NCBI GenBank assembly: GCA_035573435.1
Contig: DATMZR010000019.1
Span: 62,001 to 126,000, forward strand
Direction of reading: 5' to 3'
DNA length: 64,000 nt
From: Solirubrobacterales bacterium
GTDB lineage: Bacteria > Actinomycetota > Thermoleophilia > Solirubrobacterales > 70-9
The position numbers were made by a program, and so were the translations under genes. The notes under the pieces are model-generated. The model searched no databases. It was not told where the DNA came from and saw only the letters and a program-made list of their open reading frames with translations. This document shows, in pieces, positions 4,183 through 25,181 of the stretch (the first letter of the stretch is position 1; every line of letters begins with the position of its first letter).

Positions 4183-5385
4183 TCAATCCGCGCTGAAGCG
4201 CGCCGCCTCTTCGGAGCCCCCGGTCGCGTCGCCGGCGCTGTAGGAGTGCGCGCCGGCGCCGGCCAGCGCGCCACCCTCGACGATCAGATACTCCTCCCGG
4301 ATCGGGCGCCCCTCGAAGTAGCACTCGAGGATCTCGCGGACGCCCGCCGCGTACCGCGCCTGGGCCGACAGGCTCGTGCCGGAGACGTGGGGAGTCATGC
4401 CGTGGTGGGGCGCGGAGCGCCAGGGATGGTCCCTCGGAGCCGGCTGTGGAAACCAGACATCGCCGGCGTACCCGGCGAGCTGGCCGCTCTCGAGCGCCCG
4501 CACCACCGCGTCGCGGTCGCAGATCTTCCCGCGAGCGGTGTTCACCAGGTAGGCGCCGCGCTTCATCTTGCCGATCAGCTCGTCATCGAAGAGGTGCTCC
4601 GTCTCGGGGTGAAGCGGCGCGTTGATCGTCACCACGTCGCAGACCTCCACGAGCGACTCTGGCGTCGGGTGATAGGTGACGCCCAGCTCTTCCTCGACCG
4701 CGTCGGGAAGGGGATGGCGATCCGTGTAGTGCAGCCCAACCTCGAACGGCTTCAGGCGCCTCAGCACGGCCGAGCCGATCCGCCCGGCTCCGACGGTTCC
4801 GACCTGCATCCCCTCCAGGTCGTAGGAGCGCGAGGCGCAGTCGGCGATGTTCCAGCCCCCCTCGATCACCTGCTGGTACGACGGGATGTAGTTGCGGACC
4901 AGCGCCAGGATCATCATCACCACGTGCTCGGAGACGCTGATCGAATTGCAGTAGGTGACCTCGGCGACGGTGATCCCGTGCTCGATCGCCGCCTGGAGGT
5001 CGACGTGATCGGAGCCGATGCCGGCGGTGATCGCCAGCTTGAGGTCGGGGGCGTTGGCGATCCTGGCCGCGGTCAGGTACGCGGGCCAGAAGGGCTGGGA
5101 GATCACCACCTCGGCATCCGGAAGCTCTCGCTCGAAGGCCGACTCCGGCCCGTCCTTGTCCGCCGTCACGACCAGCTCGTGCCCGCGGTCCTCCAGGAAC
5201 CCTCTCAGCCCGAGCTCGCCCGAGACGCTTCCCAGGAGCTCACCCGGGCTGAAGTCGACCCCCTCCGGGGTGGGAGTGGTCTGCCCGTCCCAGTAGCTCT
5301 CGATCTTCGGGATGGCGTCCCGGGGATACGCCGGCGGATAGCCGTCGACGGGGTCGTCGTACAGAACGCAGAGAACCTTGGACAT
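4183..5385 (-). CDS. fdh: NAD-dependent formate dehydrogenase (metal-independent)
   Basis: This enzyme oxidises formate to CO2 with reduction of NAD+ in the cytoplasm. The 400-residue protein follows the Pseudomonas/methylotroph FDH family closely along its length: [14 protein letters not shown] at the start, [31 protein letters not shown], the GAGRIG nucleotide loop, HYTDRH (acidic residue giving NAD preference), NTARGK (catalytic Arg, about 285) and TPHVSG (catalytic His, about 333). The tail [13 protein letters not shown] is also family-specific and separates it from other D-2-hydroxyacid dehydrogenases. The start at 5385 has GGAGG 8 bases upstream and matches the family N-terminus; a longer frame to 5445 is less likely. 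It needs no molybdenum or selenium. Confidence 0.95.
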
Positions 5386-5423
5386 GTGCTTAGCCTCCGG
5401 TTGGATCGTGGGAGTGCCCTCGA

Positions 5424-5447
5424 CCGTGGGCCGGATCGGGCCCACGG
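5424..5447. promoter_or_regulatory. Perfect 9-bp inverted repeat between fdh and rpmE
   Basis: CCGTGGGCC, the spacer GGATCG and GGCCCACGG form a perfect dyad between two divergent genes. It ends 8 bases before the rpmE -10 candidate and lies 38 bases upstream of the fdh start. It could be an operator for either gene. Nothing ties it to a known regulator, and it does not resemble actinobacterial Zur boxes. Confidence 0.4.
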
Positions 5448-5455
5448 ACCGCCGC

Positions 5456-5461
5456 TAACAT
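5456..5461 (+). promoter_or_regulatory. Candidate -10 box of a leaderless rpmE transcript
   Basis: TAACAT fits the TANNNT -10 pattern and ends 8 bases before the rpmE ATG, which would place transcription initiation at the start codon. No ribosome binding site is visible upstream of that ATG. Confidence 0.5.
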
Positions 5462-5469
5462 CAGTGCAG

Positions 5470-5673
5470 ATGAAGGCTGAGATCCATCCAGATTACGTGC
5501 TCGCCCACGTCCGCTGCTCATGCGGGAACGAGTTCTACACGCGTTCCACGAAGCCCGAGCTGCATGTTGAGATTTGCTCGGAATGCCACCCGTTCTACAC
5601 CGGAAAGCAGAAGCTCGTCGACACGGGCGGCCGGGTGGAGCGCTTCAAGCGTCGCGCGGCCCGGGCCCGCTGA
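5470..5673 (+). CDS. rpmE: 50S ribosomal protein L31 (zinc-binding type)
   Basis: This is ribosomal protein bL31, 67 residues, at the surface of the large subunit near the central protuberance. The N-terminus [10 protein letters not shown] is the family signature. Four cysteines (Cys16, Cys18, Cys37 and Cys40, in [12 protein letters not shown] and [14 protein letters not shown]) make this the zinc-binding C+ form. The basic tail [10 protein letters not shown] is usual. There is no Shine-Dalgarno sequence, but TAACAT lies 8 bases upstream, suggesting a leaderless start. It opens the rpmE - DUF1385 - (RTX insertion) - prfA - prmC - tsaC series, an actinobacterial translation cluster. Confidence 0.97.
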
Positions 5674-18567: not shown

Positions 18568-19476
18568 ATGAGGACTCGGACCAAGGTCCTGCTGGGCGTT
18601 GCCGGCTACATCGCCGTGGCCGTCCTGCTCGTGGTGATCTTCGGCAACGAGGGCAAGAACGACGAGTTCAAGCCCCAGGACGAGTTCAAGCTCGAGCCGT
18701 GGCTCAGCATCAAGGTGGGCGGGATCGACTTCAGCATCAACCGGGCGGTCTTCTACCTGGCGCTGGCGTGCGGCCTGACGATCGCGGTGATGGTGTGGAT
18801 CTCGCGGCGCATGCAGCAGAAGCCGAACAAGGTCCAGACGGCGATCGAGCTGGCCTATGACCTGACGCGCAACAACATCACGGGCTCGAACCTCGACCAG
18901 CGCACCGCGACCAAGTGGTTCCCGTTCCTGGCGACGCTGTTCTTCTTCCTCTGGTTCTCGAACGTGATCGGCTATCTGCCGCTGCCCACGAACACCGCCG
19001 AGACGGTGAACATCTTCGGCCTCGAGCTGCCGACCTTCTCGATCTACGCCGCCACGGCGAACATCTCGGTGCCGCTTGCCCTGACGCTCGTCGTTTGGAT
19101 CTCCTACAACGTCGAGGGGATCCGCGCCAAGGGCTTCTTCCCCTACTTCAGGAGCTGGCTGCCGCCGGGCCTGGAGGACATGAACCCGGTGGGCAAGGGC
19201 CTGATCTTCGTGATCGAGGTGATCTCGCACTTCGTGCGCCTGATCTCGCTCTCGGTGCGGCTGTTCGCGAACATCCTCGCCGGACACCTGCTGCTCCTGT
19301 TCATGGGCGGCGGGCTGGCCGTGCTGCTTGGTCTCGCCGCCCTGGGCGCGCTGACCTTCCCGCTTGCCTTCCTGTTCTTCGTCTTGGAGCTTGGCCTGAT
19401 CGCCACGCTGCAGGCGTTTATCTTCTCGATGCTTACCGCGATCTACCTCGGCGGGGCGACCGCCGAAAGCCACTGA
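18568..19476 (+). CDS. atpB: ATP synthase Fo subunit a
   Basis: Subunit a (302 residues) is the membrane stator that forms the two proton half-channels next to the c-ring. After an N-terminal anchor ([19 protein letters not shown]) and an extracytoplasmic loop come the family helices. The signature [14 protein letters not shown] contains the essential arginine, and the last helix carries [19 protein letters not shown]. The ATG at 18568 follows GGGGGTGG by 9 bases. The gene stands third in atpZ-I-B-E-F-H-A-G-D-C, and the downstream atpE is 13 bases away. Confidence 0.96.
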
Positions 19477-20910: not shown

Positions 20911-22572
<1,662 letters not shown>

Positions 22573-22604
22573 AATCGGTGACTCCTCCCACGACAGCCCG
22601 TCTT

Positions 22605-22706
22605 AGCGGGCTGCAAACCGTCGCCAGCCGGCGTCCTCGCTCGCTCGCGCACTCTTCAAGTGCGCCACGCTCGCTGCGTCCTCGCCTGGCTCGGTTTTCG
22701 CCCGCT
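22605..22706. repeat. Foldback (MITE/REP-like) element between atpA and atpG
   Basis: The outer arms AGCGGGC-TGC-AAACCG (from 22605) and CGGTTTTC-GCCCGCT (to 22706) are inverted copies. The exact middle is a perfect hairpin, GCGCACT-CTTCA-AGTGCGC (22647-22665). A direct repeat, GCGTCCTCGC, flanks the centre (22631 and 22676). The left end also lies in a small hairpin, CAGCCCG-TCTTAG-CGGGCTG (22594-22613). No protein is encoded. The symmetry and site suggest a small mobile or processed element. Confidence 0.65.
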
Positions 22707-22735
22707 GAGTCGCACTGTCGCGGAAGGAGGCACCG

Positions 22736-25181
<2,446 letters not shown>

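Follow-up and report, generated by a model that had tools for sequence, protein, structure and literature searches.

A foldback repeat between atpA and atpG of a Solirubrobacterales bacterium and the family of inverted repeats to which it belongs

The foldback element and its two junctions

A 64,000-nucleotide stretch of the genome of a Solirubrobacterales bacterium (GCA_035573435.1, contig DATMZR010000019.1, positions 62,001 to 126,000), here called the window, carries a foldback element between two ATP synthase genes, atpA and atpG. The F1 alpha subunit gene (atpA, 20911-22572, TIGR00962, stop codon TGA at 22570-22572) is followed by the F1 gamma subunit gene (atpG, 22736-23656, TIGR01146); these genes and all features given below lie on the forward strand. 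An earlier note on this DNA had described inverted outer arms and a perfect central hairpin with a common centre, and both are present: the hairpin GCGCACT-CTTCA-AGTGCGC occupies 22647-22665 and shares with the arms a centre near 22655.5. The size given there, about 100 base pairs (bp), was too small, for it left out 25 to 30 bases at either end. The whole element (22573-22737), delimited by its inverted repeat, its copies in other genomes and empty sites in two relatives (G001 and G002; G, C and L numbers are our handles for genomes, contigs and loci, and G000 is the genome of the window), is a single imperfect palindrome of about 160 bases. Its left arm (22574-22611) and right arm (22700-22737) are each 38 nucleotides (nt) long and 82% complementary, and with this extent the palindrome fills the entire atpA-atpG gap. 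The longer BLAST copies elsewhere span approximately 22576-22735 of the window, their left ends falling at 22573-22578 and their right ends at 22729-22735. The core common to the whole family (22606-22705) matches our covariance model at 93.6 bits (G000:C19:84606-84705). Being short, non-coding and bounded by terminal inverted repeats (about 160 bp, 38-nt arms at 82%), the element is built as a miniature inverted-repeat transposable element (MITE).

The RNA fold that the earlier note had proposed as a check gave a strong predicted structure: the segment 22595-22715 is predicted at -58.6 kcal/mol (z = -4.7), a stability reached by none of 200 shuffles. An Rfam search of window positions 22400-22900, with E values up to 10, returned two matches only, both far under the gathering score. 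The 163 bases previously stated as the gap length are correct provided that atpG begins with the ATA at 22736, where its relatives start. The accompanying remark concerned other atp junctions, which look short in the mechanical list of open reading frames (ORFs), for example at 19476/19490, 19768/19772 and 23656/23668.

The two ends of the element meet the flanking genes in a particular way. An ORF of 56 codons, which we call the relay ORF, runs from 22569 to 22739; its ATG (22569-22571) overlaps the atpA stop codon as ATGA, and its TAG (22737-22739) overlaps the atpG start as ATAG. A Shine-Dalgarno sequence, AGGAGGT (22556-22562), lies in the end of atpA and now stands before the relay ORF; like letters precede atpG itself in the related genome G001. 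A second one, AAGGAGG (22724-22730), lies in the right arm and is supplied to atpG by the element, and the left arm carries opposite it the letters CTCCT (22582-22586).

The apparent start codon of atpG is ATA (22736-22738). The same ATA is found in L065 (G001) and L061 (G002), both lacking the element, so that ATA appears, from the sequence, to be the atpG start codon in three genomes from this genus. The other relatives that were read have ATG at this position, apart from one unclear case (L086). From the stop at 22706 as far as codon 24, the frame of the window's atpG contains no ATG, GTG or TTG; a CTG lying seven codons before the ATA is a possible alternative start. In Staphylococcus aureus, AUA starts with extended Shine-Dalgarno sequences have been reported, according to an excerpt of PMC13009471.

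Empty sites, copies and spread of the family

We ran BLAST against 61 genomes, the window's own and others mostly from its genus, family and order; 33 had matches at E <= 0.01, and near full-length copies occur in G003, G019 and G025. Near full-length copies in relatives sit between ribosomal-protein genes. We read 30 atpG loci, the window's own included, and found the element at the window's only; no atpG match was obtained in G003. In the congeners G001 and G002 the atpA-atpG junction is tight and empty, reading gcATAgcc, with the atpA stop TAG overlapping the atpG start ATA. The sequences show the foldback to be an insertion. The earlier note had named as counter-evidence the lack of any other copy together with a gap conserved in relatives; what we found were copies in relatives and empty junctions in G001 and G002. 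Against the empty site of G001, a target-site duplication in the window would amount to AT at most.

Two further junctions tell the same story of filled and empty sites. Between cysD and cysN the element is present in G118 and G029, and both flanks occur without it in seven other genomes of that genus; the five empty junctions that are readable have TAGTG (G021, G027), TAATG (G025) or approximately 25-28 nt (G132, G112). Between rpsQ and rplN it is present in G112, and in 12 of 14 other loci the 60 nt that precede rplN are free of it, the search string not having been located in the remaining two. Elsewhere, L048 (G018:C12, before rpsS) and L094 (G003:C37) keep the arms with most or all of the core gone, either by deletion or as a coreless form.

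The family has the dispersed copies and the empty sites in relatives that characterize a MITE. The earlier note had offered a MITE- or REP-type insertion; the MITE half of that proposal is supported, with copies at other loci and two empty congeners, and the REP half is not, there being no association with Y1 transposases and few copies in the window's own genome. A repetitive extragenic palindrome (REP) mobilized by a REP-associated tyrosine transposase (RAYT) was rejected because PF01797 matched in 7 of 41 genomes and in none of the copy-holding genomes G001, G002, G003 and G011. The own genome has one Y1-transposase-like match (L103, G000:C9:4844-5089), and the exact motif letters sought near it are absent.

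The covariance model was built from a core alignment of 22 copies with 12 pairs named by hand, because RNAalifold on the MAFFT core alignment gave a poor structure owing to the variability of the inner stems. At E <= 1e-4 it matches 78 of 151 Solirubrobacterales genomes; six of these have at least 27 scored candidates each, and true copy numbers are higher. Of 198 genomes sampled evenly across the phylum, 13 match, three from this order, five from others of the class and five from outside the class. The own genome holds three covariance-model matches in all. BLAST there finds, besides the query, one match at E < 0.05 (on C12, 68%, at secY-adk by sequence reading), and a search for the 19-base central hairpin with as many as 3 mismatches allowed finds the pattern once. 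The core is strand-specific, since letters resembling GTCCTCG recur as direct repeats on either side of the stem, and several of the stems between them vary. The outer-arm pattern CGRTGACTCCTNCC (one mismatch allowed) was discarded as a marker of the element, since it matches in all 41 genomes and the five exact matches that were read are not elements. Copies are clustered or lie side by side at G050:C8:4410-4811 (L159), G037:C26:133-2390 and G055:C9:163107-163264. At L089 (G003:C193, approximately 5382-5560) a run of N and letters resembling a tRNA T-arm stand beside a broken copy before rplO, possibly an assembly fault. In titles and abstracts, with subscription journals largely outside the coverage, we found no description of this repeat family.

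Position, arms and open frames of the copies

We assessed the position of the copies relative to genes in 110 loci listed by the model, best scores first and some listed rows skipped, using our own codon-score gene calling. No called gene spanned a copy in these 110 loci. Both neighbours were available at 106: the copy lay in sense in a tandem pair at 71, between convergent genes at 25 and antisense in a tandem pair at 10, and never between divergent genes, whereas 38 of 238 gene pairs without an element in the same loci were divergent. The upstream gene runs in sense at 98 of 108 copies; counted by genome, the majority orientation is sense in 38 of 43 and antisense in 4. Nearly all sense cores (91/98) stand at one of two fixed distances from the stop codon, -9 to +11 (70) or 29 to 46 nt (21). 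In tandem pairs whose next start is more than 90 nt off, 20 of 27 cores are still at -2 to +4 from the stop; the 27 include the window, because the gene caller misses the ATA start of atpG. With strict stem extension, the hairpin foot lies no more than 5 nt from the final base of the stop in 49 of 93 cases; folding with coding flanks, or lax extension, failed to place the foot in such GC-rich sequence. A preference for TAG stop codons as target was not significant (45/92 beside elements versus 101/258 elsewhere, p = 0.11). At L174 (G003:C258), a convergent pair, the arms enter both genes and include both TAG stops (GCAGTAGGA / TCCTACTGC).

A long-arm class occupies tight operon pairs, where the hairpin spans from stop codon to start codon and the arms vary between copies and covary within them. 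Profiles confirmed as neighbours the ribosomal genes rpsS and rplV, rplX and rplE, rpsQ and rplN, rplP, rplB, rplO and rplR, and in addition cysD and cysN, nuoH, an oligopeptide-type permease, der, the pyruvate dehydrogenase E1 beta subunit, and atpA and atpG; partner genes such as rpsC, nuoG and cmk were assigned by sequence reading rather than by profile. Cognate arms pair better than arms taken from different loci (median 4.5 versus 0.5), and 35 of 104 exceed the 99th percentile. The nine copies of one subfamily all measure 166 nt from TAG to right foot, although in two of them (L338 and L339) the TAG is not confirmed as an in-sense stop codon. Among these nine, both partners have changed in 23 of 52 pairs, where shuffles give 11.3, and the covariation score of 0.323 (0.130 in shuffles) was reached by none of 500 shuffles. 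Pairing is kept in 95.6% of cells in the outer helix and in 77.8% in the second.

The right arm of long-arm copies often carries a Shine-Dalgarno sequence, one of at least four letters being present in 13 of 20 pairs. In the fold model, whose long-arm pairs are partly related, the predicted mean unpaired probability of the Shine-Dalgarno sequence over these 13 pairs is 0.15 in the free RNA and 0.38 when the left arm is shuffled (p = 0.006). With the 13 nt after the stop codon occupied, the predicted mean is 0.42 (p = 0.0005).

We define a relay frame as one that begins in overlap or contact with the upstream stop and ends in overlap or contact with the downstream start. Among 50 tandem loci whose next start is near (49 sampled loci and the window), 22 have such a frame; shuffles of the gaps average 6.2, with a maximum of 12 in 400 rounds. 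Both relay junctions are at -4 or -1 in 11 loci, against 2.7 after shuffling (maximum 6). In gaps of 155-180 nt the frequency rises to 13 of 17. Control gaps lacking the core on both strands have a relay-like frame in 10 of 79 cases, strict in 2; a first control (16/95) still contained elements that had escaped its filter, and the both-strand filter reduced it to this figure. When L034, L092, L335 and L336, all relay-bearing, are added by hand, the counts become 26 of 54 loci and 17 of 21 long gaps. Relay ORFs read the core in all three frames, 13, 9 and 4 of the 26. At L235 (G085) and L338 (G011:C21) antisense copies also fill a tandem gap, with a relay-like frame in the sense of the genes.

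Proposed coupling, its alternatives and known systems

Insertions within operons of essential complexes such as the ribosome, ATP synthase and NADH dehydrogenase should harm the cell, because reinitiation-based coupling reportedly collapses once the distance grows by about 20 nt. PMC10666635 reports that reinitiation at ATGA-type overlaps declines over some 20 nt among the pairs it tested, and an inserted 160-nt hairpin should therefore uncouple the two genes. We infer that operon-internal copies are tolerated because they preserve translational coupling between the genes. For the window, the reading we favour, and to which we give an even chance, is that a non-autonomous MITE-like element inserted at the tight atpA-atpG junction and was tolerated because it maintains coupled translation. 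The placement from stop to start and the relay frame point, as sequence features, to translation rather than to mRNA processing. A ribosome finishing atpA would restart on the relay ORF (22569-22739) at its overlapping ATG and, in reading that frame, open the hairpin; it would then stop at the TAG overlapping the atpG start, where the AAGGAGG freed from the hairpin would aid initiation of atpG. When atpA is not translated, the hairpin would partly hide the atpG Shine-Dalgarno sequence. The relay ORF would in this way turn a single tight junction into two.

A number of observations weigh against this coupling, and against the relay in particular. More than half of the sampled tandem loci (28/50) have no relay frame, the test was framed after examples had been seen, and the loci are partly related. 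When only the interior is shuffled, 16.8 of 54 relay frames are expected (maximum 22 in 300) against 26 observed, so the relay signal comes mostly from the matching ends. Relay starts are preceded by Shine-Dalgarno letters only modestly more often than in shuffles (15/26 versus 10.2). The relay peptide is not conserved, and differences at the three codon positions in one subfamily are 0.253, 0.254 and 0.222; selection on the peptide is thus unsupported, and with all three frames in use, whatever is kept, if anything, would be the openness of the frame. Seven of the 20 long-arm pairs have no four-letter Shine-Dalgarno sequence, L189 runs opposite to the fold-model trend, and the effect in the window is slight (unpaired 0.30 free, 0.40 with shuffled arm and 0.48 with the stop side occupied). 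One screen linked structure just downstream of a stop codon to lower coupling, according to part of PMC12548453. The convergent copies (25/106) and those far from any start cannot serve coupling, which is therefore not the function of the whole family. Finally, correction of the stem in the DNA itself could produce covarying arms that have no function as RNA.

The main rival to the relay is unfolding alone, which we consider unlikely: the hairpin would hide the Shine-Dalgarno sequence and a ribosome terminating at the stem foot would open it, the open frame arising incidentally from high GC content and the duplication of stop/start overlaps. The stop codon at the stem foot, the 13 of 20 right arms with a Shine-Dalgarno sequence, the predicted rise in unpaired mean from 0.15 to 0.38 or 0.42 and the precedents reviewed in the portion of PMC12548453 available to us all fit this explanation. 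It would leave unexplained the 7 pairs without such a sequence, and the relay frames in phase at both ends, well over shuffles and control gaps, also speak against it. Also improbable is a neutral or mildly harmful MITE that survives only where it does no harm, with overlaps arising from target duplication and no function in coupling. In one subfamily, 3 of the 9 copies (L335, L336, L344) carry TAGTGG at each end; this repeat alone would suffice to give both overlaps, and it may equally consist of stop/start overlaps. Short gaps (median tandem gap in these loci 23 nt) would also favour insertion at junctions. On the other hand, neither the sense bias (98/108) nor the contact with the stop where the start is distant (20/27 at -2 to +4) is expected from neutral survival, and the arms covary. 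We are more doubtful still that the family is a 3'-end RNA element acting on stability, RNase processing or Rho-related events, with the operon-internal copies making up only some of its members. Sense copies do follow stops in convergent pairs (25/106) and before distant starts, unpaired strand-specific motifs such as GTCCTCG are conserved, and ERIC is described in the accessible part of PMC2229807 as destabilizing upstream transcripts depending on orientation, but a position between essential operon genes would again need tolerance. An intrinsic terminator or attenuator is very improbable, for the strong hairpins soon after stop codons, convergent pairs included, have no T-tract (in the 40 nt past the core the longest T run is 1-3 at 106 of the 110 loci and 4 at the other 4) and copies sit inside ribosomal-protein, atp, nuo and cys operons.

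Beyond the coupled insertion at atpA-atpG, we suggest tentatively, and with some doubt, that the mobile element evolved transparency to operon translation, offering an overlap at both ends and an open frame in whichever core frame is needed; stop contact in sense and the strand-specific loops may hint at targeting at the mRNA level. The family would then be a possible case of a repeat selected for an open frame and not for a peptide, and it offers natural test pieces for the passage of ribosomes from gene to gene.

Several known systems share parts of this arrangement. ERIC, IRU, RU-1 and other MITE-like repeats are likewise short non-coding inverted repeats between genes, co-transcribed and, in the extract of PMC2229807 available, said to affect mRNA according to orientation; the present family differs, by description rather than by sequence comparison, in its sense orientation, contact with the upstream stop, stop-to-start hairpin, covarying arms and relay frame. 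REP/RAYT systems also consist of short palindromic repeats outside genes, whereas here there is one long hairpin instead of short REP units and Y1 transposases are not associated. An attC site with a short ORF, as presented in part of PMC8876359, similarly places a hairpin after a stop codon, the short ORF relieving the stem-loop by termination-reinitiation. The present elements lack the R'' RYYYAAC and R' GTTRRRY boxes of attC: RYYYAAC...GTTRRRY occurs in none of 110 elements with flanks, and the copies lie among housekeeping genes rather than in cassette arrays. The ends of the relay ORF are of the ATGA/TGATG kind known from termination-reinitiation at overlapping genes, and short distances are enriched among complex subunits (PMC10666635; see also PMC6728339). 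Here, by contrast, an insertion of about 160 nt has produced two such junctions in series; coupling is reportedly abolished by a plain gap of some 20 nt. Another known case is coupling by hairpin unfolding, for example at E. coli atpHA (cited in PMC12548453), in which a Shine-Dalgarno sequence is paired in a stem that the upstream ribosome would open; in the present family, that stem is carried by a mobile repeat at many loci.
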